A stretch of DNA of 64,000 nucleotides, from positions 2,107,001 to 2,171,000 of the forward strand of contig NZ_CP147518.1 in NCBI RefSeq assembly GCF_037201965.1. The letters are read 5' to 3'. This DNA comes from Spirosoma sp. SC4-14. Lineage in GTDB: Bacteria > Bacteroidota > Bacteroidia > Cytophagales > Spirosomataceae. The notes beneath the pieces were generated by a model. It did no database searches. It was not told the origin of the DNA and worked only from the letters and a program-made list of their open reading frames with translations. The position numbers and the translations under genes were made by a program. The number at the start of each line of letters is the position of its first letter. Position 1 is the first letter of the stretch. Of this stretch, positions 38,426-51,041 are shown piece after piece.

Positions 38426-39883
38426 ATGAGTATAAAAGCAACCCGTACGGGTATTGTGCTTCGGCCCGATCCTACACGTGTTTTGTTTCGCCCGTTCGAA
38501 TTGGGAAGTACCACCCGCACATTGAAAATTATTGCGCGTGTGGGCAGCATGACCGACGAGGAAGCCGAGCAAAAACTGGAGGAAGTTATTCGTGAGTTTG
38601 GTGGTCGACACTACAAACTGGAGCGATTTCTACTGCAACGATTTGAGCAGATTAAGCCTCAGTTACTAACCGACGAGCCATTGACCGATGCGCGGAAATT
38701 ACTGCTTGGGGCTTATTTTACGATGGAATATTCGCTGGAGTCGGCGGCCCTGTTCAATCCGTCGATGATCTGGCATCCCGATCAGAGCAATGTGCCACCA
38801 GGTTATAAACGGTTTATTCTGAGCTTACGGGCAACGGGCGAAGGACACGTATCGTCTATTTCGTTTCGAATGGGCTATATCGACGAGGAAGGTAAGATTG
38901 TGTTGCGAAAGCCATCTCGTTATGTGACATCGCCAGAAATTGTAGCCAACCACTTATTTAACCGGGCTCAGTTTGAGCGCAAGCTCTATGAGCTGCGACT
39001 CGTAAACAGTATTCAGGAAAAAATGATGACTGGCCTTGGCGACGAGTTTAGTCTGGCCGATCTCGAAGGGCAGATCAAGCGCGTAACGGCGCAATATCGC
39101 TACAATGCCGAATACGAAACCATTGCCAGTGGATTGCTGGCACTGGCCAAATCGAACTACGAAATCCATTTTGAGGAAGATCAGAGCCTGGATGAACGCT
39201 GTATTTTCCCAACCTCGCCTAATGAAACCAATGGCATTGAAGATGCCCGGTTCGTGCAGTTCACCGACGACGATGGCGACGTGACCTACTATGCTACCTA
39301 CACGGCCTACAACGGCCGTGTTACGTTTCCGCAATTGCTGGCCACCAAAGATTTTACGCACTTCAGCGTCAGCACGCTGAATGGAGCCGAGGTGTCGAAT
39401 AAGGGAATGGCTTTGTTTCCACGAAAAATTGGCGGTCGATATGCCATGATTTCGCGGCAGGATGGCGAGAATATTTATCTGATGTATTCCGACGATCTGT
39501 ATTTCTGGCAGACAAAGGAGTTGATTCTGAAACCTACCTATCATTGGGAATATGTGCAGTTGGGTAATTGTGGATCACCCATTGAAACCGAAGCGGGTTG
39601 GCTGGTGCTGAGTCATGGGGTAGGGCCAATGCGTAAGTATGCTATTGGGGCTTTCCTGCTCGATCTTAACGACCCGAGCAAAGTGCTTGGCCGAACACTA
39701 GAGCCAATCCTGAGCCCCGACGAAAACGAGCGCGAAGGCTATGTGCCCAATGTAGTGTATAGCTGTGGCGGGTTGATTAATAATGGGGAGCTAATTATTC
39801 CCTATGCCATGTCTGACTATGCCAGTAGCTTTGCTACTGTAAACGTTAGCGAACTGCTGGCCGAACTTACGTATGGGGGGTAA
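38426..39883 (+). CDS. GH130-family beta-mannoside phosphorylase or hydrolase
   Basis: 485 residues with no signal peptide. An N-terminal helical extension (about 1-120) precedes a five-bladed beta-propeller. The family segment NGIEDARFVQF carries the Asp catalytic acid, and GNCGSPIETEAGWL, SHGVGPMRKY and EREGYVPNVVYSCGG are typical of GH130. Phosphorylases of this family act on beta-1,2- or beta-1,4-mannosides with phosphate; some members are hydrolases. Two Arg/His phosphate ligands decide this and were not fully checked. It is probably cytoplasmic, degrading what the neighbouring GT4 makes. Confidence 0.88.
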   Translation: MSIKATRTGIVLRPDPTRVLFRPFELGSTTRTLKIIARVGSMTDEEAEQKLEEVIREFGGRHYKLERFLLQRFEQIKPQLLTDEPLTDARKLLLGAYFTMEYSLESAALFNPSMIWHPDQSNVPPGYKRFILSLRATGEGHVSSISFRMGYIDEEGKIVLRKPSRYVTSPEIVANHLFNRAQFERKLYELRLVNSIQEKMMTGLGDEFSLADLEGQIKRVTAQYRYNAEYETIASGLLALAKSNYEIHFEEDQSLDERCIFPTSPNETNGIEDARFVQFTDDDGDVTYYATYTAYNGRVTFPQLLATKDFTHFSVSTLNGAEVSNKGMALFPRKIGGRYAMISRQDGENIYLMYSDDLYFWQTKELILKPTYHWEYVQLGNCGSPIETEAGWLVLSHGVGPMRKYAIGAFLLDLNDPSKVLGRTLEPILSPDENEREGYVPNVVYSCGGLINNGELIIPYAMSDYASSFATVNVSELLAELTYGG

Positions 39884-39962
39884 ATCGAAATAAGAAGTTG
39901 TATTGAATATATTTTGGCCGATTCATTGAAAATCAAGCAGTTATAATTTTGGCCAAAATTTT

Positions 39963-39987
39963 CCAAACACGAACTTTTGTATTTGGC
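39963..39987. repeat. Left-end transposase-site candidates
   Basis: CCAAACACGAA (39963-39973) is the exact reverse complement of the TTCGTGTTTGG motif at the right end. It is followed by TTTTGTATTTGG, a diverged copy in the other orientation. This is a likely MuA binding pair near the left end. Confidence 0.5.
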
Positions 39988-40088
39988 TTGAATTGCCCTT
40001 AAAGAAATGAATAGAAACTATGCGCTTTTAGGGCTATAACTTGGATTACCATTAAATTTATTGAGTCCCTTTTTACCTAGTTAATAGG

Positions 40089-40514
40089 CTATCCCTTAAA
40101 TAGAGCTAATGCGGCTGTTATAGCTGAAATAGCGCCAGAAACTGAGTTAACAAGTTCGATTGACTTAGGTTCAGTTTGTTGTTCGAGTTGCCGTAGTTCC
40201 AGCAATAGTTTTTGCAGATTAGCTTGAGAAAGGGCATCTAAAAAGGAGAATCCGCCTTTATTGTGTAGGTCATGAGCTTCAATATTGACCTTGATATGTA
40301 TCTGTTTTTTATGCAATCCAAGTTCTTGGATAAGGCCAAGTCGTTTAAACTGAGACAGTATGGCGCTTAGGATGTTGAAATCTGTTCCAACATCCTTTAG
40401 GATTGTATTGGTTGAAAAGTCGCCGTATTGATCAATTGGCAAACGGCAAATCCATTCTAAAATATCGTCTTTTAGTAGGTTTGAAATAGGTCTGGGTGTA
40501 TATTCGTCACTCAT
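40089..40514 (-). CDS. Unknown protein with winged-helix-like N-terminus
   Basis: 141 residues. The N-terminal half (LLKDDILEWICRLPIDQYGD to about 70) looks like a winged helix. The C-terminal end has a hydrophobic stretch (SVSGAISAITAALALF) that could be a membrane or amphipathic helix. The composition is AT-rich like the early part of the mobile element, so it is probably element cargo. I do not recognise the family. Its start is only 13 bases from the divergent gene at 40528. Confidence 0.55.
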   Translation of the reverse strand: MSDEYTPRPISNLLKDDILEWICRLPIDQYGDFSTNTILKDVGTDFNILSAILSQFKRLGLIQELGLHKKQIHIKVNIEAHDLHNKGGFSFLDALSQANLQKLLLELRQLEQQTEPKSIELVNSVSGAISAITAALALFKG

Positions 40515-40527
40515 AAGAAGAGAAGCT

Positions 40528-40758
40528 ATGTTTAGGTATGATTATGAATACGGAGATGAACATTATAATTTCTCTGTGAACCTTTTGCAGTTCTCTCAGC
40601 GACTATTGACTGACCCCAAGGGATCAGACGAGTCGGCAGATAAAATGACTGCTTGGCTAGGCAGGAATCTAAAAAAGCCCTGTCGTCCGGCTGATCTGGA
40701 CACATTGGTCTGGTATCGTGCTCTTGAGATGTTACACAGTAGTAATCGCCTGAATTAA
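40528..40758 (+). CDS. Small unknown protein in the mobile element
   Basis: 76 residues, acidic at the N-terminus (MFRYDYEYGDEHYNFS), mostly helical, no signal peptide. A purine-rich AAGAAGAGAAG precedes the ATG and could serve as ribosome site. A terminator follows 24 bases after the stop. The family is not recognised; it is probably element cargo. Confidence 0.5.
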   Translation: MFRYDYEYGDEHYNFSVNLLQFSQRLLTDPKGSDESADKMTAWLGRNLKKPCRPADLDTLVWYRALEMLHSSNRLN

Positions 40759-40781
40759 AGCGATTCTCAATTTATACTTAT

Positions 40782-40814
40782 AAGCCTTGCAGGTGCTTCC
40801 TGTGAGGCTTTTTT
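40782..40814 (+). terminator. Rho-independent terminator
   Basis: A 12-bp stem (40782-40793 with 40799-40810) includes two G:U pairs and is followed by TTTTTT. It closes the small gene at 40528-40758. Confidence 0.8.
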
Positions 40815-40855
40815 GTTTAAATGCTCGTTAATAGCCGTTTAAATACACCCCTAAT

Positions 40856-41040
40856 CTTCGTGTTTGGAAATAGGTGTGCAATTAGGTGTGTATATCATAC
40901 CGGAAAAAGTCAATAACAAGGAAATTGCTCTAAGTGTCCGCCTAATCTTCGTATTTGGTTTTTCTAAGTACCTAAAATGTCCGCCTAATCTTCGTATTTG
41001 GAATTAGGCGGACATTTGGGCGGACAATTAGGCGGACATG
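40856..41040. promoter_or_regulatory. Repeat-rich regulatory region of the element
   Basis: Three copies of CTTCGT(G/A)TTTGG lie in one orientation at 40856-40867, 40947-40958 and 40990-41001. The third copy is flanked by a perfect 12-bp inverted repeat, TGTCCGCCTAAT (40978-40989) with ATTAGGCGGACA (41003-41014). Further half-sites are GTCCGCCTAAT (40936-40946), GGGCGGACA (41018-41026) and ATTAGGCGGACA (41027-41038). The layout suggests operators or internal transposase or enhancer sites like the Mu internal activation sequence. The 396-base gap 40759-41154 otherwise holds only the terminator at 40782 and AT-rich sequence. Confidence 0.6.
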
Positions 41041-41154
41041 CTATGTAAGAAAAGTTCAATTGTTACACTCGCTTTATTTTTCTTGTAAACAAGTTGTAAT
41101 ATATTCAATATAGATTGCTCATATAGTTAGCAATCAGATTTAATGCTGCTATTA

Positions 41155-41532
41155 TTAGCCTTTGTTCTGTTCTCTTCTTTCATACAAATCAACAAGTTTC
41201 TTTAAAGCTTCTATAGTCTCTTCTTTATCTTTTAGTCTGGCTTCTAACTCAAGAATCTTCCTCTGTTGTGATTGCGTAGACCTGTTACCCTTGTCATCTG
41301 ATTGGCTCTTTTTAATTGAGTTCATGCTTTCACTGAACTCTTGTAAGTCATTATAAAAATAAGTTACAGGTTCTTTTGTTGCTTCCGATAGGTCTAATAT
41401 GAAAGAGAACTTAATCTCTTTGGCGTTTAGCCGACTGTTAAGAGCTTGAGGGGTAATATTTAATTTTTCGGCCAATTCAGTAAGGCTAATTCCCGAATGC
41501 TCTAGTTTCTTTCTCAATTCACTCCCTGTCAT
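41155..41532 (-). CDS. XRE-family repressor of the Mu-like element
   Basis: 125 residues. An N-terminal helix-turn-helix (ISLTELAEKLNITPQALNSR, about 15-40) is followed by a linker and a C-terminal Lys/Glu coiled coil (ILELEARLKDKEETIEALKK) that would allow dimerisation. It is transcribed away from the Ner/MuA genes, the same arrangement as Mu c and ner, so it is the likely lysogeny repressor. There is no protease domain, so induction would not be by RecA-type autocleavage. Confidence 0.8.
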   Translation of the reverse strand: MTGSELRKKLEHSGISLTELAEKLNITPQALNSRLNAKEIKFSFILDLSEATKEPVTYFYNDLQEFSESMNSIKKSQSDDKGNRSTQSQQRKILELEARLKDKEETIEALKKLVDLYERREQNKG

Positions 41533-41622
41533 AAAGGATATTTTTAAAATTTCTTTAAAGACTATTGTTTATTATAAAGAGTTTTGTTTAATTTGATTCG
41601 TCGTCAGTTGACACCAAAGGAA

Positions 41623-41808
41623 ATGGACACGATAGAAGAAATCAAGCAGCACTTAGAATACGGTGATTGGAGGAAGGTGGGTAAAATGGTGGGGGTTTCA
41701 CGGAAATATGCAATAAAGATTGCTAGCCGACCAACGTCTAAGCTCTATTCGCAGGTATTTGACGCTGCTAAAAAAATTGCTCAAGCAAATGCCGGTCTTG
41801 GTATATGA
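41623..41808 (+). CDS. Ner/Cro-like small DNA-binding protein
   Basis: 61 residues from ATG 41623. A TTG 39 bases upstream also keeps the frame open, but the chosen start gives MDTIEEIKQHLEYGDWRKVG, which aligns end to end with its paralogue at 46571 (METLEEAKRYLRRGDYVKIA). The helix-turn-helix is around VGKMVGVSRKYAIKIASRP. Ner in Mu damps early transcription. The stop overlaps the MuA start by four bases (ATGA), so translation is coupled. Confidence 0.72.
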   Translation: MDTIEEIKQHLEYGDWRKVGKMVGVSRKYAIKIASRPTSKLYSQVFDAAKKIAQANAGLGI

Positions 41809-43955
41809 AACTTATCAGCGACATATCGTATATAGCCCTAAGTGATTTAGTGGAACTCTGTGGTATTGAGTCGGATACTATTGAGCGAGGCTATCGCAGA
41901 GGTTCTAAGCAATGGCAATCTATCGCTGATCCAGATGATCGGCGTAAACGTTTGATTCGCTATGATACGATGGCTGATAGATATAAAGGTATCGTTCGGC
42001 GAGTGCTTTGTAATGGCTTTGAACCCGGTGAAATTCCTGCTCAGACAGAAGGTCAACTTTTGAGTGAACGGTCATTGCCGGAACGCTTACAATTGGTCTG
42101 TATAGAGGGTTATAAGCAGTATATCGGCTTGTATCCAGTCGAGTTATCCGATGCTAAACACCGCCAAAAAACACAAATAGCCTTAGCCAGAGCAGCGGCC
42201 ATTGTGGAAACAATTGGCCGGTATGTCATTGAAACCGGGCAGGACTGGCGGGATTACACCCCCTATGAGCAGGCTATCGAGTGGCTTACCCCCGATTATG
42301 ATCAATATTTTCCGATTGGTCATCAATACTTACCAATGGAGGTGAAGAACCTTAAAGAACGGGTGTTGATGCGCTACATTGGCAAGAAGGAAAAAGGGCA
42401 GGAACGGGAACAGGTTCCCATGCCGATTACCGAAGTCATTCGATTACCCCGGCAAGGCAACCAAAACCGCGATTTGTACTCTGACGATCAGGAATTGTTG
42501 TCTTGGGTCGTGCAGGCCCGGATGAGTGGACAGAATTATACCGATGCGCACGTTGCCCGAAAGGTTCAGCAAGTCTGTCAGTTAACGGGTAAGCCGGTTC
42601 CTAGTGATCGCTGGGTAACCAAGCTGCTTCAATCGCCTAAAATACGGCAGTTAACGACCGGGCGTTGGGGCAACGAAGGCGGTCGGGCGGCTGTCTATCA
42701 GCACTACCACTCGTTTAAACGGGCAATGTATGCCGGTGACTGCTGGCAGGTCGATGCGACCCGAATCAACTTTGTCGAACACAAGGCATTCGACGGTAAA
42801 GGAACCCAATTCCTGTTCATCGTTGCCATTCGGGATGTATACAGCGGGGATATTGTCGGGGTTGATTTCGGGGTAACAGAAAACCGCTGGACCTATGTTA
42901 ATGCCTTTAAAATGGCCGTCAATGTTACCGGGCATTTGCCGCATACACTGGTTTATGACCGCTTTCCGGGTCATCTAACCGATGAAATCCAAGCGGTTCT
43001 GAATCGAATGGAAGCCAAAGGTGTAAAAATGGTTTGTACCCATAACGCTCAGGGGAAAGCGGCTGTAGAACGTTGGTTCGATACCTTACAGACCGTGTTT
43101 TTGGCACAATCCCGCTACTACTATGGGCAGGGTATTCGCTCTACCCGACCTTCGGCCCATCGGTCAGCTACCTATCTGGATAAACTCAGAAAGGAAGCGA
43201 CTAAAGAGGGCTGGGACTTTGACAAGGCATGGCAGGAAGCGTGGCGGTGCGTGGAAGTGTACCGACATACCCAGCTAAGCGAGTACTCCAAACAACACAA
43301 ACGGCTTGAACTGACCCCGGCTCAACTCTACGAGCAAAGCGAAAAGCCGCACGTAATCGAGGTGCAAAGCTGGTGGGTAGCCGAATTGTTCTGGCTGGAA
43401 AAAGAGGTGACTGTCTTACGGAATCAGATCAAGTTCACGGTCGATCATCAGGAGTATGTCTACCAGATTTTCGATAAAGAATTTCTCTATCAGTATAGCG
43501 GCAAGAAAGTAGCCGTTCGCTATGACGACACGGATTTAGACCGGGTAATGCTGTTTGTGCCGGGTACGGATCAGTTCCTGCTTGATCTGGAAGAAACGAA
43601 ACGGATCGCTATACACGGGCCTAATGCCGATAGTGAGGAGCTAGGACGGCGTATGGCCCAGGTGAAACGGTTTGAGGTCGAAAAGGAAGCGGATTTGAAA
43701 GGTATTCTTACTAATACCTCTGACATTGATCTGATGCTTGGTTCCAAGACCGACAAAGCGGCCAGTATAGCGGCTGAAAGTGCCATGACCAGAGTGGTTT
43801 ATGATAGCATGGGGGCAACCATGACGGCCAAACTCAAGCGGCAAGCCAAAGCTGCATCGAAGCCTAGCCCGACCGTTAAGCCTATCCCTAAAAAGGTGAT
43901 TCCGACTGCCTTGGACGATGATCCCTACGACCCGAATAAATACGTTCGGTATTGA
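41805..43955 (+). CDS. MuA-like DDE transposase
   Basis: 716 residues. The N-terminal part (about 1-280) carries helix-turn-helix DNA-binding regions. The catalytic RNase-H-like core follows, with Asp317 (WQVDAT), Asp385 (LVYDRFPG) and Glu422 (AAVERWFDT), a complete DDE triad. After it come a beta-barrel region and a C-terminal helical tail (about 600-716), the MuB-contacting part in Mu. It should cut and join the element ends, replicatively or by cut and paste. No frameshift or missing key residue is seen, so the element may still be mobile. Confidence 0.93.
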   Translation: MKLISDISYIALSDLVELCGIESDTIERGYRRGSKQWQSIADPDDRRKRLIRYDTMADRYKGIVRRVLCNGFEPGEIPAQTEGQLLSERSLPERLQLVCIEGYKQYIGLYPVELSDAKHRQKTQIALARAAAIVETIGRYVIETGQDWRDYTPYEQAIEWLTPDYDQYFPIGHQYLPMEVKNLKERVLMRYIGKKEKGQEREQVPMPITEVIRLPRQGNQNRDLYSDDQELLSWVVQARMSGQNYTDAHVARKVQQVCQLTGKPVPSDRWVTKLLQSPKIRQLTTGRWGNEGGRAAVYQHYHSFKRAMYAGDCWQVDATRINFVEHKAFDGKGTQFLFIVAIRDVYSGDIVGVDFGVTENRWTYVNAFKMAVNVTGHLPHTLVYDRFPGHLTDEIQAVLNRMEAKGVKMVCTHNAQGKAAVERWFDTLQTVFLAQSRYYYGQGIRSTRPSAHRSATYLDKLRKEATKEGWDFDKAWQEAWRCVEVYRHTQLSEYSKQHKRLELTPAQLYEQSEKPHVIEVQSWWVAELFWLEKEVTVLRNQIKFTVDHQEYVYQIFDKEFLYQYSGKKVAVRYDDTDLDRVMLFVPGTDQFLLDLEETKRIAIHGPNADSEELGRRMAQVKRFEVEKEADLKGILTNTSDIDLMLGSKTDKAASIAAESAMTRVVYDSMGATMTAKLKRQAKAASKPSPTVKPIPKKVIPTALDDDPYDPNKYVRY

Positions 43956-43982
43956 TATTCAACAACTTAACTATGTATAACT

Positions 43983-44915
43983 ATGATTACAATTGAGCAA
44001 AAGAAAGCGATTGCGTTGCTGTTGACACAGGAACGTCATGCGCTGGGTAGCTGGCAGAAGGTTGCCACGAAAGTAGGGGCCAATGTGGCTACCGTCAGCA
44101 AGAACATGCAGGAAGAAAGCCTGTTTGGCCTTGTCTCGGATCAGATGTGGCAGCGAGTCGGCACGAGTCTGGGGCACCAACTGTCGGACGCAAATTGGGT
44201 GCTGGTGGAAACGATGAATACCCGTTGGATGAACAAGTATCTGTCCGATGCCCAACAACACGCCATGTTTCTGGCGGTTTCCCACAAGGCGGGACAGGGT
44301 AAATCGGCAGGCATTTCGCTGTATCGGTCGAAAGCAACGATTGGGACGGTGTTCTATCTGGAATGCAAAGAGTTTTGGAGCCACAAGCTGTTCTTAAGCA
44401 AACTCTGTCAGACGGTCGGTCTGGATGCTACCGGGCTGAATCTGGCAGCAATGGCCGAAGCCTTGATTGACTTTTTTAAACAAAAAGCCATTGGTTGTCG
44501 GCCCGTTCTGATACTGGATGAAGCCAATAAGCTCAGTCCTGCAAGCCTACGGCTGATTATTCCCCTGTACAACGAGCTAAAAGGGCACATCGGGCTAGTA
44601 ATTGTAGGGGCTGACGATCTGGAAAAGCACATTAAATCAGGCGTTCGCCGTAGTGTGCGGGGGTATGATGAGTTAGACAGTCGGCTTGGTCGTCAGTTTA
44701 TGCACTTGGTTGGAGCTACTGAACAGGATGTCCGGGCGATTTGTGCGGCCAATGGGATCGGGGATGCCAAGACCCAAAAAGAAATCTGGTTGGCGATGAA
44801 TCCCCAACAGGTATTAGTGCCAGTATTTGGCCGCTATGAAGATTTGGTAGACGAAGATTTGCGCCGGTTGGAACGGCTGATTCTGGATCGTCGGATTAGT
44901 CAGGTTCAGGGCTAG
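43983..44915 (+). CDS. MuB-like AAA+ target-selection ATPase
   Basis: 310 residues. An N-terminal helix-turn-helix (about 20-50, WQKVATKVGANVATVSKNMQ) precedes an AAA+ core with Walker A AGQGKS (103-108) and Walker B VLILDEANKL (Asp179, Glu180). In Mu this protein coats target DNA, stimulates MuA and gives target immunity. It sits 27 bp after MuA in the same operon. The length matches Mu gpB (312). Confidence 0.92.
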   Translation: MITIEQKKAIALLLTQERHALGSWQKVATKVGANVATVSKNMQEESLFGLVSDQMWQRVGTSLGHQLSDANWVLVETMNTRWMNKYLSDAQQHAMFLAVSHKAGQGKSAGISLYRSKATIGTVFYLECKEFWSHKLFLSKLCQTVGLDATGLNLAAMAEALIDFFKQKAIGCRPVLILDEANKLSPASLRLIIPLYNELKGHIGLVIVGADDLEKHIKSGVRRSVRGYDELDSRLGRQFMHLVGATEQDVRAICAANGIGDAKTQKEIWLAMNPQQVLVPVFGRYEDLVDEDLRRLERLILDRRISQVQG

Positions 44916-45126
44916 GAAGTAGCCTCCAATGGTAAGTTGTCCCGTTTTCAGTCGGATTGCTCAATCCGCATGCAGGATAAAAACAAGGAAGCCGTTTAAA
45001 CGGTGTTTAAATTCTTCGAGAATCGACGCAAATGTTTTTGACGGACTTGGATAAGGTCGATAGTCTTCGGCTTGTCCAAGGGGCTGTTTTGTGAGATAAA
45101 CTTTTAACGAGTAGACAATCAAATGA

Positions 45127-45837
45127 ATGAAACAACTAATGAAACGGACTACTGCTCAGAACGCTCGCTTTCATGCCCTACTGACAGCGCGAAAGTTTGA
45201 TAAGGAAGAGAAAGCGGCTTTGGTGCTGACGTATACACAGGGTCGTTCAGAGTCTTCAAAGGATATGTCAAAAGAGGAGATGGCCGAAGCCATTAAACAT
45301 CTGGAAGGCTTGGAGATGGCTTCCATTCGGAAAATGCGCGCCAAGATCATCAATATCGCCAAAGATATTTTTCGTGTGGCCGATATGATGCAGGCTGATT
45401 GGGATAACCTGAACGTCTTTTTAACCAAGAAGTTCAAAGGCAAGCTCAATGAGTTGGACTACGAAACGCTTCGCAAAGCCGTTACCGCAATGGAGAAATG
45501 GAAGCAAAGCGAAGATAAAAAACGGACTGGCAAGCCGACACAAACCGCCCAACAGGAACCCCAAAAACAGCCTGTTAACCAGCTTTATCGCCCGTATATA
45601 GACAAGCCAAAGGCCGTCATTGAATCACCCTGGCTCATTATGAAGGATCGGGATACGGTGGATGAGTTTGGGGATATGTACGAAGAATATACCGATCAGC
45701 TTGTCGAGATCGAACGCCAGATCGCTGGCGCTGAGTCGATAGACCCAGCCGATATTCGTCGGATTCGGCAGCTACAGGCAACGCTTACCCATATGTCTCA
45801 TTTGTATAATAATCAACCTTTTAGACGAGAAAATTAA
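45127..45837 (+). CDS. GemA-like (Mu gp16-type) phage protein
   Basis: 236 residues. The first half holds KMRAKIINIAKDI and a FKGKLNELDYETLRKAVTAM segment, resembling the C-terminal part of GemA/DUF1018 proteins, which change host gene expression in Mu. The second half is a Gln/Pro linker and an acidic helical tail. The placement after the transposition genes also fits. The similarity is by pattern and partial. A start 12 bases downstream is equally possible. The 211-base gap before it holds a CTTGGATAAG/CTTGTCCAAG hairpin around 45048-45080. Confidence 0.5.
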   Translation: MKQLMKRTTAQNARFHALLTARKFDKEEKAALVLTYTQGRSESSKDMSKEEMAEAIKHLEGLEMASIRKMRAKIINIAKDIFRVADMMQADWDNLNVFLTKKFKGKLNELDYETLRKAVTAMEKWKQSEDKKRTGKPTQTAQQEPQKQPVNQLYRPYIDKPKAVIESPWLIMKDRDTVDEFGDMYEEYTDQLVEIERQIAGAESIDPADIRRIRQLQATLTHMSHLYNNQPFRREN

Positions 45838-45841
45838 AACT

Positions 45842-46189
45842 ATGGTACGCTTTCAGGAAAATGCTTTAATAATTGAAATTCCATGTGTAGATGCTGATGC
45901 AGTAGACTATTATGAGGATTTGCAAAAGGCGCTCTATGAAGTATTCTGGCTAGCCAATGGCAAAGGTGGGATACAGTATGAAAGTATAAGCTGGATAGCT
46001 AATTATTTAGGTCCGGCTGTAGCTGCACTAGATCCACATGCTAAACAGGTTTTAAGCCAATTAGCTCAGAAGCAGGAAGGTGTTCAACCTTTATGCGCTA
46101 AATCCCGCACGAATGAGGAAATTCTGACTTTGTTAAAGGATTTACCAATAAGCCGGTTTCAGCAGATCATGAGTCAATTTGAGGTGTAG
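45842..46189 (+). CDS. Unknown element protein
   Basis: 115 residues, four bases after the GemA-like gene. Acidic N-terminus (CVDADAVDYYEDLQKALYEV), then a helical second half (DPHAKQVLSQLAQKQEG). No signal peptide or known motif. It is probably part of the early operon; the function is not recognised. Confidence 0.6.
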   Translation: MVRFQENALIIEIPCVDADAVDYYEDLQKALYEVFWLANGKGGIQYESISWIANYLGPAVAALDPHAKQVLSQLAQKQEGVQPLCAKSRTNEEILTLLKDLPISRFQQIMSQFEV

Positions 46190-46211
46190 CACCCATTGAA
46201 TACTGATTAAG

Positions 46212-46442
46212 ATGGCTGTTCAAAGTCTAGTTCGTATATCAACAATGCCTCTTTCTGAGGTCCGCGCCTTGTTCTTTCTGTTATCGGCGATAGCTGAACT
46301 GGAAGAAAGTCCCTTGTCAGTTGATGCAATCAATAGCCTGTTAGTCAGTGTTGAACGGCTAACAGGCCCATTGGCCGACCGACAGGACTTGTTTCGTGTC
46401 TCAAATGCCACTATCAGTCGATTAGTGGCTCGTCAAACTTAA
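46212..46442 (+). CDS. Small unknown element protein
   Basis: 76 residues, helical and leucine-rich (LSEVRALFFLLSAIAELEES). Not recognised. It lies 22 bp after the previous gene in the same direction, as part of the early operon. Confidence 0.5.
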   Translation: MAVQSLVRISTMPLSEVRALFFLLSAIAELEESPLSVDAINSLLVSVERLTGPLADRQDLFRVSNATISRLVARQT

Positions 46443-46455
46443 TAATTTAATCGCC

Positions 46456-46593
46456 ATGCCAGAGCCAAAACACTTTTCGGCTGAGCTAAAAAAGCGGCTT
46501 GATGAACTCGATAAAGCCCGAAAAATTGCGCAAAAAGTTTATTTAACGACCTCAAAACCAGTACCGGATAATGGAAACACTAGAAGAAGCTAA
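46456..46593 (+). CDS. Possible 45-residue element protein
   Basis: ATG 46456 to TAA 46593 reads a charged helix (AELKKRLDELDKARKIAQKV). It overlaps the next gene by 23 bases and starts 13 bases after the previous stop, spacing normal for this compact operon. It is supported only by position and by a coherent helical sequence. Confidence 0.35.
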   Translation: MPEPKHFSAELKKRLDELDKARKIAQKVYLTTSKPVPDNGNTRRS

Positions 46594-46765
46594 AAGATAT
46601 TTACGGCGTGGCGACTATGTTAAAATAGCCATTGGCCTTGGAATAAACCTTGAATGTCTTCGTAAAACTTTACAACGGCCTAAAGCAAAGCGTTACCCAT
46701 CTATTGTGGCAAAAGCTTGTGAAGTGGCTGAGTTCAATAAATCGCTTGGTTTAAAGCCTCTTTAA
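46571..46765 (+). CDS. Second Ner/Cro-like small DNA-binding protein
   Basis: 64 residues with helix-turn-helix IAIGLGINLECLRKTLQRPK. It is clearly a paralogue of the Ner-like protein at 41623: both start M-(D/E)-T-(I/L)-E-E and share R-x-GD(W/Y), a central helix-turn-helix and a final N-x-x-LG. Two Ner-like copies in one element suggest either a duplication with new operator specificity or separate early and late regulators. Confidence 0.68.
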   Translation: METLEEAKRYLRRGDYVKIAIGLGINLECLRKTLQRPKAKRYPSIVAKACEVAEFNKSLGLKPL

Positions 46766-46865
46766 ATACCACTTAAAGGGCATTTGATTTCCCCTTCAAT
46801 TCTTGGATACACCTTATCCAATTGACCTAACCGACAATCAGTTTTCAAAATGTATAGATTTTATT

Positions 46866-46873
46866 TATCTTCG
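46866..46873 (+). promoter_or_regulatory. -7-like box inside the element
   Basis: TATCTTCG differs by one base from TAnnTTTG and lies 49 bases before ATG 46922. It supports the downstream start for that gene over an in-frame ATG at 46850. Confidence 0.35.
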
Positions 46874-46921
46874 GCGTTACAGAACGCGGGGTGGAATCCC
46901 CGTATCCACCGTAACCGTAAA

Positions 46922-47152
46922 ATGGCTTCGTTTTCGACTTCTACAAGTCCTTTCGTGTCGAATAGTGCCCGTCGTCTGGAAACGATACGGGCTGATTTTG
47001 CCCGTCAGCAAGAACGGGGCATCAAGTCGGCTGTGATTATCGCTGAGTTAGCGGAACGCTATTTTCTGACCGAACAGACTGTTGAAGCAATGGTCTGGAA
47101 GCGTGGCCGGTATGCTGTTTCTGTCTCCACGTCAAACCCCAAAACAGCTTGA
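46922..47152 (+). CDS. Small HTH-like element protein, copy 1
   Basis: 76 residues from ATG 46922. The core ETIRADFARQQERGIKSAVI then RYFLTEQTVEAMVWKRGRYA looks like a helix-turn-helix. It is a paralogue of the protein at 47630, with the same order A/E-I-R-A-(D/E)...I-(A/L)-E...YFLT..T-(V/L)-E...RGRY. It may be a middle-late regulator of the Mor/C type by position, but this is not shown. The stop overlaps the next start. Confidence 0.58.
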   Translation: MASFSTSTSPFVSNSARRLETIRADFARQQERGIKSAVIIAELAERYFLTEQTVEAMVWKRGRYAVSVSTSNPKTA

Positions 47153-47598
47153 CCCGGTATCTATTGACTTCGACGCTGTTTGAAGGCGAAATGGCCTTTA
47201 GTTACGATGAAGGCGGCAACTTGGTCAACTTCACCAATGACGCTCAACTTAACGAGATGCAGCGGACCTGGCTAAAAAGCCGGTTTCCAATGGGTCGCAA
47301 TGACCTAACCCTACTGGTCCATGATTCCAAAACCCTAACGGTTCAGCTTATATCGGCTGATTTGAGTTTTGCCCATTTTTGGGAGGAATACGGCTATAAA
47401 GTCGGTCACAAAACAAGGGTTCAGAAGCTTTGGGATAAACTACCCGATGCGGACAAGCTTAAGGCATTGGAAGCCATTGCCCCGTATAGCTATTATTTAT
47501 CGACGCGCCCCAACATGGAGCGTCTTTACCCCGAAACGTTTTTAAGCCAACGTCGATTTGAGACCGACTATAAAGCGTTGGCGAAGGGGAAAGCCTGA
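47149..47598 (+). CDS. Element protein with replication-protein-like C-terminal domain
   Basis: 149 residues with a TTG start at 47149, overlapping the previous stop (TTGA). The alternative is ATG 47191, 14 residues shorter. The C-terminal half (FWEEYGYKVGHKTRVQKLWD, then YLSTRPNMERLYPETFLSQR) resembles the C-terminal domain of phage replication-initiation and DnaT-like proteins, which bind DNA or recruit helicase. The pattern match is moderate. It might supply a host-replication link that Mu uses for replicative transposition. Confidence 0.5.
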   Translation: MTRYLLTSTLFEGEMAFSYDEGGNLVNFTNDAQLNEMQRTWLKSRFPMGRNDLTLLVHDSKTLTVQLISADLSFAHFWEEYGYKVGHKTRVQKLWDKLPDADKLKALEAIAPYSYYLSTRPNMERLYPETFLSQRRFETDYKALAKGKA

Positions 47599-47629
47599 TA
47601 ATTTCGCACGTTAACACACTCTAAATCCG

Positions 47630-47854
47630 ATGGTTACTCAATCCGCTCCGCAACTCGATACTTCGGCACAAACGTTAAAACAAAAACGCAACGAAGCTAT
47701 TCGGGCAGAATATCAAAAGATGTTTACCGCTGGCAAGCGCAACGAATTTATTCTGGAAGCCTTATCGGTAAAATACTTTTTGACGACCGATACGCTTGAG
47801 CGGATCATTTTCCAGCGGGGACGCTACAAGGAAAGGCAACAAAGACAATCATAG
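47630..47854 (+). CDS. Small HTH-like element protein, copy 2
   Basis: 74 residues; the core EAIRAEYQKMFTAGKRNEFI then KYFLTTDTLERIIFQRGRYK parallels the protein at 46922. It is the last rightward gene of the element; a terminator follows 25 bases later. The family is not recognised beyond the paralogy. Confidence 0.58.
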   Translation: MVTQSAPQLDTSAQTLKQKRNEAIRAEYQKMFTAGKRNEFILEALSVKYFLTTDTLERIIFQRGRYKERQQRQS

Positions 47855-47879
47855 GTTAAGTTAAAAGTTAGGTAATGCA

Positions 47880-47917
47880 AACAGCCCGAAATCGTTGGTT
47901 TCGGGCTGTTTTGTTTT
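47880..47917. terminator. Bidirectional terminator in the middle of the element
   Basis: A perfect 12-bp stem AACAGCCCGAAA (47880-47891) with 47899-47910 around a 7-base loop is followed by TTGTTTT. It separates the rightward early operon from the leftward tail genes. Confidence 0.88.
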
Positions 47918-47935
47918 CCAAGGACGAATACCTGT

Positions 47936-49843
47936 TTAGGTACCCATTGAGTTAGCACTATTCAACACGCGCAAGAGTGAGTCTGTCAACTGCGCTTCCA
48001 TATCCTTAATGCCCTCCTGAACGGTTCCTGAATTGATGTTGAGCCGCTCGACCAGGCTTTTTAGATTAATGGTAATCGTAGTCGATTTGGTACCGCCCGT
48101 AGTCGCTTCCAGACCACCCGCTTTGCCAGGTGAATCTTTGCCGGTTTTCCCGCCACCCGCCCCTGGAGCCTGTGGCATTTGGGGCTTAGCCAGCGTCGGA
48201 GCGGTGGGCACCTTAGGAGCGCCAGCCGCTGCCCGTGCCGCTTTGTCGGCTTTTATCTTGACTTCAGCATTGGCAAGCCCCTGTTGAATTGCCCCCGAAA
48301 AGGCACTGGCTACACCCGAAAAGTCGCCTTTCATTAGCGCATCCCAGGCTTTCCCCAGCGACGAAAAGACCGCTTTCGCTACTTCCCAAAGCCGTATTAG
48401 TGCATTGCGGAATCCTTCGACATTCTCCCACGCCCAGACGATTCCGGCCACGACTACTGCAATGGCGGCTAAGATCCAAACGGCGGGACACGCCAGAATA
48501 GCGGCATTAGCCGCCCACCAGGCTTCAGCAAAGGCAACCACTGCCGAAAACGCGGTTCCCAGCCAGCCCACCAGTGTCGCTATCCAGCCCACTATCGTTC
48601 CCAGATTCAGAATCACAATATCAGCGGCCACAATAAATGCTGACACGGGATTGTTGGTTAGAAAATCGATTGCCGACGCCAGGATATTAACAATAAACGC
48701 AACACCATTTATGGCCGTGGCCAATAGATTCATAACCAGCGTCAGCAAACCACCCTGTTCGCCCGTTATTCCGAATATTGCAAGCAACCGGCCCAATGCC
48801 GAAAACAACGGCTCGAAGGACTTGAACAGGTTCTGAAGGGCCGCAAACACTGGCTCAAGGGCGGTTAGTAGGCCATTGCCAATGTCGAGTAGCATCCCTA
48901 GTATCGGGTTTAACGATTCGGCCAGCTTGGTAATCTTACTGCGAATCGTCCCTAAGAAGGTCGATAAGCGGCCCCCTACCGATTTACTTTGCTTATCGAG
49001 CATCCCAAAGAAAATACCCCCTTCGGAAGTCATTTTCTTAAAAGCAGCCTGCAAGTGGCCAAAGTTCAATTCGCCCGATTCTGCCATTTTGCGAATCTGT
49101 TGGGGGGTCTTACCCAGCATATCGCCCAGCGTTTGCAAAATAGGAATGCCCCGGTCCGAGAACTGATCTAGTATGTCGTTTTGCACGACAACATTACTTT
49201 TCGCTTTGGCATAAACCCGCATTAGTTCGCCAAAGTCGGTTTGTACCCCGGCTGCTACGTCGCCTACCATTTGCTCGTTGGGTAGTATCTCGTTGACCTT
49301 AAAGCCCTGACCCAGCATCAACCGGCCCGTATTTAACACCTCTTCGTTAGAGAAGGGGGTAGCATCGGCAAAGCGATTTTGCTTGTCGATAAGGTCTTGA
49401 GCCTGCGATCCGGCAAACTGCTGGTAGGCAATCTGGGTTTGTTCGGCACTAATGCCCGATGAGAAGAAGGAGCCGGCACCCGCAATCAGGGCAGCGGCTC
49501 CTGCATAGGGTAAGGCTTCACGGGCGAAATTGCCGATTAAACTGCCCGACTTTGACCGTCCCATTCCTTCCAACTTGTCAATCTTGCGTTGCAAAACGTC
49601 GATTTCCTTATTGGCTGCTTTGATCTGGCTGGTATTAATCAGCAAATCACGACGGCCTTTGAGCTGTTCCAGCTTACGCCGTAGTTCTTCGACCGATTGG
49701 GTAGCGCCTGCAAACGACGACTTGAGCCGATTGGTCATGCTCTTCATCCCGGCAATGGTAGAGCTATAGCGGCTGTAGATTTCCCGCAATGGCCCGGACA
49801 TCCTGTCTTGCAACTGGAATATCCACTGATAGACATTACTCAT
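47936..49843 (-). CDS. Phage tail tape measure protein
   Basis: 635 residues. An N-terminal coiled coil (SVEELRRKLEQLKGRR, about 50-95) is followed by the tape-measure domain (about 110-310). That domain has DLIDKQNRFADATPFSNEEV, GDVAAGVQTDFGELMRVYAK and QFSDRGIPILQTLGDMLGK. Long hydrophobic segments (about 365-475) follow, as usual for proteins that pass the membrane during infection, then a Pro/Ala/Gly-rich tail. It is short for a tape measure, so the tail would be short. It is the only clear virion gene with the OB-fold gene just upstream. It is transcribed against the transposition genes. Confidence 0.88.
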   Translation of the reverse strand: MSNVYQWIFQLQDRMSGPLREIYSRYSSTIAGMKSMTNRLKSSFAGATQSVEELRRKLEQLKGRRDLLINTSQIKAANKEIDVLQRKIDKLEGMGRSKSGSLIGNFAREALPYAGAAALIAGAGSFFSSGISAEQTQIAYQQFAGSQAQDLIDKQNRFADATPFSNEEVLNTGRLMLGQGFKVNEILPNEQMVGDVAAGVQTDFGELMRVYAKAKSNVVVQNDILDQFSDRGIPILQTLGDMLGKTPQQIRKMAESGELNFGHLQAAFKKMTSEGGIFFGMLDKQSKSVGGRLSTFLGTIRSKITKLAESLNPILGMLLDIGNGLLTALEPVFAALQNLFKSFEPLFSALGRLLAIFGITGEQGGLLTLVMNLLATAINGVAFIVNILASAIDFLTNNPVSAFIVAADIVILNLGTIVGWIATLVGWLGTAFSAVVAFAEAWWAANAAILACPAVWILAAIAVVVAGIVWAWENVEGFRNALIRLWEVAKAVFSSLGKAWDALMKGDFSGVASAFSGAIQQGLANAEVKIKADKAARAAAGAPKVPTAPTLAKPQMPQAPGAGGGKTGKDSPGKAGGLEATTGGTKSTTITINLKSLVERLNINSGTVQEGIKDMEAQLTDSLLRVLNSANSMGT

Positions 49844-49846
49844 TGA

Positions 49847-50278
49847 TTAGGCCGTCTGCTGTAATGAATAAGGGACGAACGACTGAAAGCAGGATGATAG
49901 AACCTCTTTGGTAAGATCAATGCGGCCTTTGGGTCCGACAAGGGTTGCCCCCTGCTCGTTTAGCTCGATAGTGAAGCCCTCAACCGTCTGGCTGATTGTA
50001 TCGGCTTCCATTACCTGACAAACGCATAACTTGGCCGGATCGACCTTGTCACCAACAATACCAACCAGTACCAGTGTATTGGGTTTGGGAGCGATAGCTA
50101 CGCCTGTTTGTTCGGCTTCGGCAAACAGGCGAACATCAAACAGAGTCAGATCGGAGCCGACAGGCTGCACCGTGCAGGTATTGCCCTCAATAGATAGGAC
50201 GGTTGCAGGAATTACCCGAACGGGTGAGGTGTTGAACAGCTTCTTAAGCTGCTGGATAGCTTTGTCTCGATTGAACAT
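49847..50278 (-). CDS. Phage baseplate/spike-type OB-fold protein
   Basis: 143 residues from ATG 50278; an upstream ATG would add 17 residues of unlikely sequence. The region VRVIPATVLSIEGNTCTVQP with the following PKPNTLVLVGIVGD has the OB-fold spacing seen in gpV/gp5-type baseplate and spike proteins. ATLVGPKGRIDLTKEV would be the start of a needle-like part. It lies 3 bp before the tape measure gene, one operon. The call is by pattern and neighbour. Confidence 0.6.
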   Translation of the reverse strand: MFNRDKAIQQLKKLFNTSPVRVIPATVLSIEGNTCTVQPVGSDLTLFDVRLFAEAEQTGVAIAPKPNTLVLVGIVGDKVDPAKLCVCQVMEADTISQTVEGFTIELNEQGATLVGPKGRIDLTKEVLSSCFQSFVPYSLQQTA

Positions 50279-50454
50279 AATGTGTGTGTGGATATAAAAC
50301 AAAGTACATCGCTCTACTGACGAATGCACCTGAACAAAGCTACTAAAAAGATTGATACTGTGAGGGGATAGCTTAATCCAAAGCCTTTATCCTATGGTTA
50401 AGTAGAGCAAAAAAAGACCATTCAACTAAGGCGGTGAACGATCCTGTAGGGGGC

Positions 50455-50484
50455 AAGGTAAAAGGGAGAGCGAAACCTACCTTG
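50455..50484 (-). terminator. Weak hairpin downstream of the last element gene
   Basis: CAAGGTA (50455-50461) can pair with TACCTTG (50478-50484). It lies just after the stop of the leftward gene at 50487. Short stem, no T-run. Confidence 0.3.
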
Positions 50485-50486
50485 GA

Positions 50487-50762
50487 TTAGATTGTCTGTC
50501 GAGTCGAACGAAGGTGAGCTAGTACTTCTTCAATTCGTTGTTGTGTTTCTGCATCCTCACACTCTACTGTCCATTGCAAATCTGCGTCCCAACTTCCATA
50601 AAAAGTAATCATAACGGGTAGGCGTTTGCTGTTTCTCATCGTTGCCCAGCGAACGGCTTCGCGCATATATTCTTTATAGTACTCGTTTCGCTGATGACCT
50701 AAATCTAAATCCGGTCTACCATCTCGCTTGCCATAGGTGAAGTTGTCAATTGATTTTACCAT
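50487..50762 (-). CDS. Unknown protein near the right end of the element
   Basis: 91 residues, charged (DLGHQRNEYYKEYMREAVRW), with a beta segment (PVMITFYGSWDADLQWTVEC) and a helical end. No family is recognised. It is the outermost gene at the right end, transcribed inward, as late or cargo genes often are. Confidence 0.5.
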   Translation of the reverse strand: MVKSIDNFTYGKRDGRPDLDLGHQRNEYYKEYMREAVRWATMRNSKRLPVMITFYGSWDADLQWTVECEDAETQQRIEEVLAHLRSTRQTI

Positions 50763-50900
50763 TAGCTCGTTCTTCGTTTTTATCTTAGGGAAGCGGTAAG
50801 TTAGCGAAATTTAAAGCATATTTAAATCCAGTTTAAAGGCTGTTTAAATGTCTGCCAAAAATTGCCCATTGCTTAGTTTTGTACAATTCGGCAAAATTGA

Positions 50901-50944
50901 AAACTTCGTGTTTGGTTTTTCCAAACTTCGTGTTTGGTTTTTCT
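50901..50944. repeat. Two tandem 22-bp right-end repeats
   Basis: Units 50901-50922 and 50923-50944 differ only at the last base. Each contains ACTTCGTGTTTGGTTTTTC. The same core occurs inverted at 39963 and direct at 40856, 40947 and 40990. These are probable MuA-binding sites of the right end. Confidence 0.75.
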
Positions 50945-51041
50945 GTCTATATACGCAACAGAATAAAGAACCTGTTGCTTCAACGCCAACTATTTCCTGA
51001 ATCAGGGTACATATATGTAAGTAGTTCTAAGTAACTACTGC

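Follow-up and report, generated by a model that had tools for sequence, protein, structure and literature searches.

What can a Mu-like element do that has kept its transposition genes and both ends but whose only virion genes are two for the tail? The question is raised by a compact element in Spirosoma sp. SC4-14, lying in a stretch of 64,000 nucleotides (positions 2107001-2171000 of contig 1, NZ_CP147518.1, in a genome of 8.1 Mb), here called the window. It occupies 39872-50951 of the window, 11,080 bp, with the termini 5′-TATGGGGGGTA ... CTATA-3′, and its two tail genes encode a tape measure protein (TMP) and a short OB-fold protein that we read as the base of a tail spike. Judging from gene order, the shortened spike base, a linked third gene and second copies in relatives, this tail pair is a separate accessory cassette, made up of the short spike base, the TMP and a linked 115-aa protein. 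The account of the whole element that we favour, though tentatively, is a natural mini-Mu of its own sister lineage, with the transposition set and both ends, in which a tail-substitution cassette takes the place of the virion.

The tail pair and its counterparts in full-length prophages

Relatives were sought with MuA in 222 genomes of the family, one genome per species, and matches were obtained in 11 of them at E≤0.001 and in 7 (eight elements) at E≤1e-80. Five of these eight close elements, termed A, B, G174, G122 and G210, could each be read at full length in a single stretch, with homologues of the terminase, portal and capsid of B. Head genes are present in G178 too, whose contig breaks off early, and G154 is spread over short contigs; neither could be mapped whole. 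Prophages A (37,663 bp) and B (49,619 bp) both reside in genome G004, and G174 (46,793 bp) is that of Fibrisoma montanum, another genus of the same family. Proteins of B matched PHROGs for terminase (2.5e-64), portal (3.1e-54), capsid (3.8e-41), sheath (6.1e-44), hub (1.3e-72) and endolysin (1.5e-14).

In the six loci read (A, B, G174, G122, G154, G210) the canonical order is TMP, one gene, hub and spike; wherever the contig shows the region upstream of TMP, a chaperone-position gene is found there. A second OB-TMP pair is carried by two of the three closest full-length prophages (B and G174), and in all three extra copies, counting that of the window element, the OB gene comes first and lies directly upstream of TMP. 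The cassette OB proteins (131, 146 and 143 aa) stop where the six canonical spikes (176-234 aa) continue. The cassette TMP of the window is full-length and conserved at both ends; an earlier note on this DNA had called it short, which does not fit its 635 aa against 620 (B) and 622 aa (A) in canonical TMPs. With the second-copy TMP of B it shares 39-41% identity, and with the canonical TMPs of these two prophages 24-25%. Remnants of a canonical late operon are ruled out for TMP and OB by order, length and the second copies in relatives, and the description as a deletion that had spared two left-over virion genes falls with them, since the tail genes are an accessory cassette.

To judge from where their relatives lie, the genes 45842-46189 (115 aa) and 50487-50762 (91 aa) belong with the tail pair. 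The 115-aa protein has relatives in three of the 222 family genomes (those of the window, G174 and B), always in a cassette-bearing element; the relative in B is partial, limited to residues 1-59 (E 1.1e-4). Also common to B and G174 is a block of 685 nt with 66% DNA identity, which runs from a helix-turn-helix (HTH) gene up to where the 115-aa gene begins. An IS605-type orfB (TnpB) gene stands directly downstream of the 115-aa gene in both (L083:16453-17652 in G174 and L014:14763-15911 in B). The B cassette lies 4 kb upstream of MuA, flanked by a repressor-like gene on one side and the Ner-position gene on the other, and two palindromes occur just upstream of its OB gene (L009:34-210 in G004; arms of 33 and 27 nt, 91% and 96% complementary). 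The G174 cassette, inside the minus-strand late operon, has beside OB and TMP a gene paralogous to the one in the chaperone position (68% over 99 aa).

We call the OB protein a spike base mainly from its homology to canonical spikes (37% identity to that of prophage B over 137 aa), the fold evidence being weak. The gene (open reading frame 49847-50329) had no match in profile hidden Markov model (HMM) searches. Its structural model gave VIA Z values of 7.1 for the R2 spike and 6.8 for those of Mu and P2, tied with unrelated OB folds. Foldseek returned nothing at E<0.001 and placed an unrelated acetyltransferase in the top row; its highest-probability rows include the spikes of Pam3, R2 pyocin, P2 (gpV) and Bas63 at 0.96-0.99, with Mu at 0.85. 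Searched against PDB sequences, an OB profile found two matches only (E 0.13-0.14) and a MuA profile none.

Judged by their codon-position identities, the cassette genes compare like genes under selection, in the long run only and not since the loss of late genes. TMP has identities of 0.56, 0.63 and 0.33 at codon positions 1, 2 and 3 against the cassette TMP of B (41% amino acid identity); the values are 0.62, 0.70 and 0.36 for the 115-aa gene against G174, and 0.59, 0.69 and 0.38 for MuA against A.

A possible regulatory signature is shared as well. Box pairs of the type TTTAA-N5-TTTAA, phased at 11 bp, were found 7, 8, 10 and 9 times inside four elements (that of the window, A, B and G174) and never outside them in 52.9, 8.3, 24.4 and 18.2 kb, and spacing controls (2-4 or 6-13 instead of 5) gave 0-2 per element and 0-1 outside. 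A related box pattern has 13 matches in the window, counting both strands, against 0.18 expected. In A, B and G174 the boxes precede the canonical chaperone-TMP operon, and in G174 also the cassette, together with its divergent TIR gene; perhaps they are operators of an element-wide regulator. A box combined with TCGAGAATCGACGCAAAT was limited, among the four stretches searched, to the GemA promoter region of the window element and the promoter region of the G174 cassette.

The cassettes of both full-length prophages have neighbours of defence type, namely AbiTii (6.2e-32), Schlafen-type PDC-S50 (2.8e-11) and Mrr-type PDC-M58A (2.7e-10) genes in B and one TIR-effector-like gene (1.4e-9) in G174. 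This raises the alternative that the cassette is an anti-phage device, in which the spare TMP and tip-less spike base, produced in the lysogen, poison or decoy the tail assembly of superinfecting relatives, and which the element, compact or full-length, spreads. The missing canonical C-terminal part of the cassette OB would suit such a role, and tail assembly is a known defence target. As far as the available excerpts of the sources go, Tab acts on the tape measure (PMC10884400), Tai blocks tail assembly (PMC11364771), and escape mutations from Rta, a protein of 80 aa without characterised homologues outside putative satellites, map to TMP (PMC12987554). The likeness is that these systems are borne by prophages or satellites and have tail assembly as their target; the difference is that they are inhibitors, whereas the cassette consists of tail proteins (PMC10884400, PMC11364771, PMC12987554). 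We consider the device unlikely. A full-length TMP with both ends conserved is more than a decoy needs, and the boxes of the cassettes here and in G174 are the same as those of canonical chaperone-TMP operons, which suggests expression in the phage cycle and not in the lysogen (the B cassette has none). PADLOC-DB 2023, which predates the papers on Tab, Tai and Rta, gave 0 matches for the 5 of 16 element proteins compared, OB and TMP included. In full-length prophages the cassette could also counter TMP-directed defences such as Tab or Rta, or it could itself interfere with other phages, which Tai does by other means.

In the literature excerpts available, no second copy of a TMP gene is described; for SuMu, several TMP homologues are reported by mass spectrometry, and the remaining sources deal with chaperones. 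Among our own contigs, two distant Mu-like viral records hold TMP-like genes among their head genes, beside a gpG-like gene (L104:10430-12553, PHROG 1.5e-28; L106:5375-7273, 2.1e-42), and a second TMP was not found in either record with one query. In G168, a genome that is not MuA-positive, a TMP gene (L098:16983-19751) is situated ~20 kb from a second one.

Ends, gene content and lineage

The termini were fixed by comparing four elements (that of the window, A, B and G174), which share TATnnGGGGTA on the left and CTATA or TAATA on the right; this comparison corrects the ends to 39872 and 50951 from the 39899 and 50960 first proposed. A 4-bp duplication flanks the window element (Table 1) and likewise the relatives, with AAAC around A, AATG around B and CGTG around G174. 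Mu itself duplicates 5 bp of its target; a 5-bp duplication was rejected here, fitting A alone among the four. The insertion interrupts a host gene close to its 3′ end, after codon 482, with 14 more codons and the stop at 50956-51000, and we take this gene to be a GH130-type glycosidase from its sequence.

Both ends do keep their repeat motifs, as the earlier note had seen. The end-site motif has 6 matches in the window against 0.75 expected (maximum in 100 shuffles, 3), and the tandem pair at the right end is a single occurrence in the genome, allowing up to 3 mismatches. By alignment, the first 130 bp contain blocks common to all four left ends, TTTTGGCC/TTTTGCCC-GA and TGAnAATCA...GTTA; a stricter left-end block pattern matches A and G174 only, while the window element and B share the block by alignment. 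These shared blocks are a candidate packaging or accessory site. With end arrays of predicted transposase sites, a flanking target duplication, a MuA DDE transposase and a MuB ATPase, the element has the mobility apparatus of a transposable phage.

From left to right it contains two small accessory genes, a minus-strand repressor gene, Ner-like, MuA, MuB and GemA-like genes, small early genes up to 47854, a hairpin, and then on the minus strand TMP, OB and the gene 50487-50762. Sixteen genes were counted after filtering overlapping open reading frames, with the longest kept under a 40% overlap rule. HMM scans and alignments confirm the transposition set that had been listed from the letters (repressor, Ner-like protein, MuA with its D317-D385-E422 triad, and MuB), and the three catalytic residues are invariant in an alignment of the window MuA with five relatives. 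No terminase, portal, capsid, sheath, tube, hub or lysis gene was found among the 16 genes (Pfam scan of all 16, PHROGs of ten), in agreement with the early observation that head, packaging, tube and lysis genes are missing. The element is like the Bacteroidota Mu-like phages (hankyphage p00, Winogradskyella Peternella_1, prophages A and B and the Fibrisoma montanum prophage) in its MuA, MuB, regulators, end arrays and early operon converging on late genes, and differs from them by lacking genes for head, packaging, sheath, tube, hub and lysis. The missing virion genes place it outside the Mu-like phages proper; an incomplete virion beside its own mobility and regulation genes is a trait that it shares with phage satellites of the PICI, P4 or PLE kind.

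The window MuA is 47-50% identical to its closest relatives and 24-25%, over less than half its length, to those of Peternella_1 and hankyphage. In MuA and MuB trees the window element falls outside the A/B/G174 clade (clade support 100/100 and 96/97), so that it did not arise recently from any of these three. An order-level sample of 390 genomes gave 7 with a MuA match at E≤1e-20; two are outside the family and distant, G331 being full-length and G252 known from a 3.4-kb locus only.

Short MuA/MuB elements beside a serine-recombinase-like gene (recognised by eye), with no phage genes seen, also exist in the family (L117:6193-8990 in G162 and L121:9204-11510 in G159), and are presumably Tn552-like by their anatomy. 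Having a MuA/MuB pair in a short element in common with ours, they make it conceivable that the window element is an independent transposon that captured two phage tail genes. We hold this to be very improbable. The repressor, Ner-like, GemA-like and other early genes, the end arrays and the boxes are those of full-length phages, and there is no recombinase gene in the window element; the G162 and G159 elements, for their part, have no phage regulators or tail genes that we could see, and their MuA is only 21-24% identical.

Mini-Mu, satellite or remnant

Laboratory mini-Mu has the Mu ends and transposition genes without the late genes, and is packaged by the headful from its left end with host DNA as filler. 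The window element looks like such a mini-Mu, with the difference that it is natural and carries a tail cassette. In favour of this reading we counted the intact open reading frames, the ends with their 4-bp duplication, and the left-end blocks shared with full-length relatives. Since transposition genes and ends are intact, the simplest expectation is that the element moves within the cell; movement between cells would need a helper. By titles and abstract openings, no natural mini-Mu or Mu-type satellite was found among the papers listed in a literature search, and no mention of Mu or transposable phages was found in the accessible part of PMC11389934.

What a helper might contribute is suggested by an analogy that the combination of TMP and baseplate part brings to mind. 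The PLE satellites of Vibrio cholerae exploit a lytic phage and are not themselves of Mu type. In the available excerpts of the source, they encode a TMP, a chaperone (TAC) and a baseplate hub (BhuB) and build chimeric tails, virions of PLE11 contain the satellite TMP and hub without the phage's own, and tmp deletion cuts PLE transduction by 96% (PLE1), 99% (PLE4) and ~99.9% (PLE11) (PMC12987554, 2026). The authors present PLEs as the first satellites known with chimeric tails that contain a TMP of their own, and in the legend of Extended Data Fig. 10 they point to putative tmp genes of PLE-like elements and of cf-PICIs (PMC12987554). The window element resembles PLE11, PLE1 and PLE4 in being small, putatively dependent on a phage head, and equipped with its own TMP and baseplate part. 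It differs from them in that it would move by MuA/MuB and that its baseplate part is an OB-fold spike base; no TAC was recognised in it, and the G174 cassette has one by position. The satellite idea of the earlier note finds in these chimeric tails a precedent, and the dependence on a helper goes beyond the sequence evidence.

On this analogy we can outline a Mu-type satellite, which we regard as possible although doubtful as a complete scheme. The element would replicate by its own transposition. Given a related full-length phage in the same cell, the headful machinery of that phage would package the element from its conserved left end, host DNA filling the length, and in the resulting chimeric tail the TMP and spike base of the cassette would stand in for those of the helper, as in PLE satellites. 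The swap would perhaps serve to escape defences aimed at the resident TMP, or to favour the element's own particles, and in full-length prophages the cassette would be a spare tail kit. If this is true, swapping or sabotaging the tail core would be a wider strategy among mobile elements, and a set of two or three genes would be at hand for testing it, a spare TMP and tip-less spike base near defence genes occurring also in full-length prophages.

That said, a number of results weigh against the mini-Mu account and its extension to a satellite. No second compact copy was found among the eight elements in 7 of 222 family genomes (the contigs of G154 and G178 being too short), nor was one recognised in viral or genome collections, where L102 and L105 are too short to tell. 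Scans of genome and viral contigs with the single MuA sequence gave no relative; alignment-based scans gave 2 and 4 loci: L101 is G174 itself, L103 by identity and span looks like that prophage again, and the remaining four are distant. Compared with phages and plasmids, TMP had 226 and 52 records, all below 60% identity and none covering 80% of the query, and OB had no match in phages at E≤0.01. In its own genome, searches without a positive control there found no relative of the B terminase or capsid, and the sequences give no evidence that the element is mobilised. It has no recognised hub or chaperone gene, and the pattern search found no boxes at the B cassette. The three short OB proteins group together in the tree with weak support (69/79), and the cassette TMPs group only together with the canonical TMP of G174; from this clustering, the cassette and the resident tail genes have probably undergone exchange.

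An ordinary deletion is the main alternative, close behind the reading of a satellite-like mini-Mu. A prophage carrying the cassette in a right-end accessory region would have been stripped of the late genes, perhaps together with part of the early set, leaving a dead-end remnant that hops within the cell at most. Full-length relatives exist (A, B and G174), the right end of prophage A holds such an accessory region (three minus-strand genes without matches), this is the sole compact copy seen, and no helper was found in searches without a positive control. The earlier note had proposed that full-length prophages of the same lineage, with only this copy lacking head genes, would point to plain deletion; such prophages do exist, and the premise of left-over tail genes proved wrong. 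On the other side, all open reading frames are intact, and the junction of early operon and cassette is clean, with a terminator-like hairpin between them. The interval between MuB and GemA is 0.2 kb here against 0.9-3.4 kb in A, B, G174, G122 and G210, and the cassette gene 45842-46189 sits in the early operon, so that one late deletion from a relative's layout would be insufficient and more than one event is needed. This interval varies among the relatives themselves, and its shortness is weak evidence. On balance the natural mini-Mu remains the account we prefer.

Coordinates and minor features

Table 1. Features of the compact Mu-like element and its insertion site (window coordinates).
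Feature	Position	Strand	Basis or remark
Interrupted host gene	38426..39883	+	relatives match codons 1-482, then continue past
Target duplication TACG, left copy	39868..39871		direct read
Weaker terminal site, left end	~39884-39895		alignment of four left ends
MuA-type site, left end	39963..39974	-	motif search and alignment of four left ends
141-aa protein, left accessory region	40089..40514	-	no PHROG or PADLOC match, no significant Pfam match
76-aa protein, left accessory region	40528..40758	+	open reading frame, Pfam scan
Three MuA-type sites (40856, 40947, 40990) past repressor gene	40856..41001	+	motif search
HTH repressor	41155..41532	-	HTH_3 1.8e-7; PHROG regulators
11-bp-phased TTTAA box pair	41543..41559		pattern search
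Ner-like small protein	41584..41808	+	no significant family match; 48% / 56% to same-place genes of A / G174
MuA-type DDE transposase	41805..43955	+	PHROG transposase 3.7e-33
MuB-type ATPase	43983..44915	+	PHROG 4.6e-32; AAA_22 5.6e-13
Box pair with TCGAGAATCGACGCAAAT	44995..45033		common to GemA promoter region here and G174 cassette promoter region
GemA-like protein	45127..45837	+	Pfam GemA 7.5e-5, below cut-off; 55-61% to A, B, G174 over 126-133 aa
115-aa cassette-linked protein	45842..46189	+	50% to G174
76-aa early protein	46212..46442	+	open reading frame, Pfam scan
Second Ner-like protein	46571..46765	+	33% to the element's Ner-like protein
11-bp-phased boxes	46750..46777		pattern search
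Small early protein, paralogue of 47630-47854	46850..47152	+	HTH-like by eye; homologues in A, B, G174
Conserved early gene	47149..47598	+	66% to A; weak primosomal/replication-initiation matches only (E 0.03-0.06)
Small early protein	47630..47854	+	HTH-like by eye; 58% to A over 57 aa
G+C-rich hairpin with T-run, terminator-like, between convergent early operon and cassette	47881..47912		direct sequence reading
TMP of cassette, 635 aa	47936..49843	-	PHROG 4.5e-30
Short OB-fold spike base, gp45/gpV-like without C-terminal part	49847..50278	-	read from ATG 50278; open reading frame to 50329
91-aa cassette-linked protein	50487..50762	-	40% to gene beside G174 cassette
Four 11-bp-phased boxes upstream of 50487-OB-TMP	50810..50848		pattern search
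Two right-end MuA-type sites, 22 bp apart	50904..50937	+	same spacing in prophage A
Target duplication TACG, right copy	50952..50955		direct read

Among the early genes, the GemA-like protein (45127-45837) has an extension without clear match, which makes it ~90-100 aa longer than the versions of A, B and G174.

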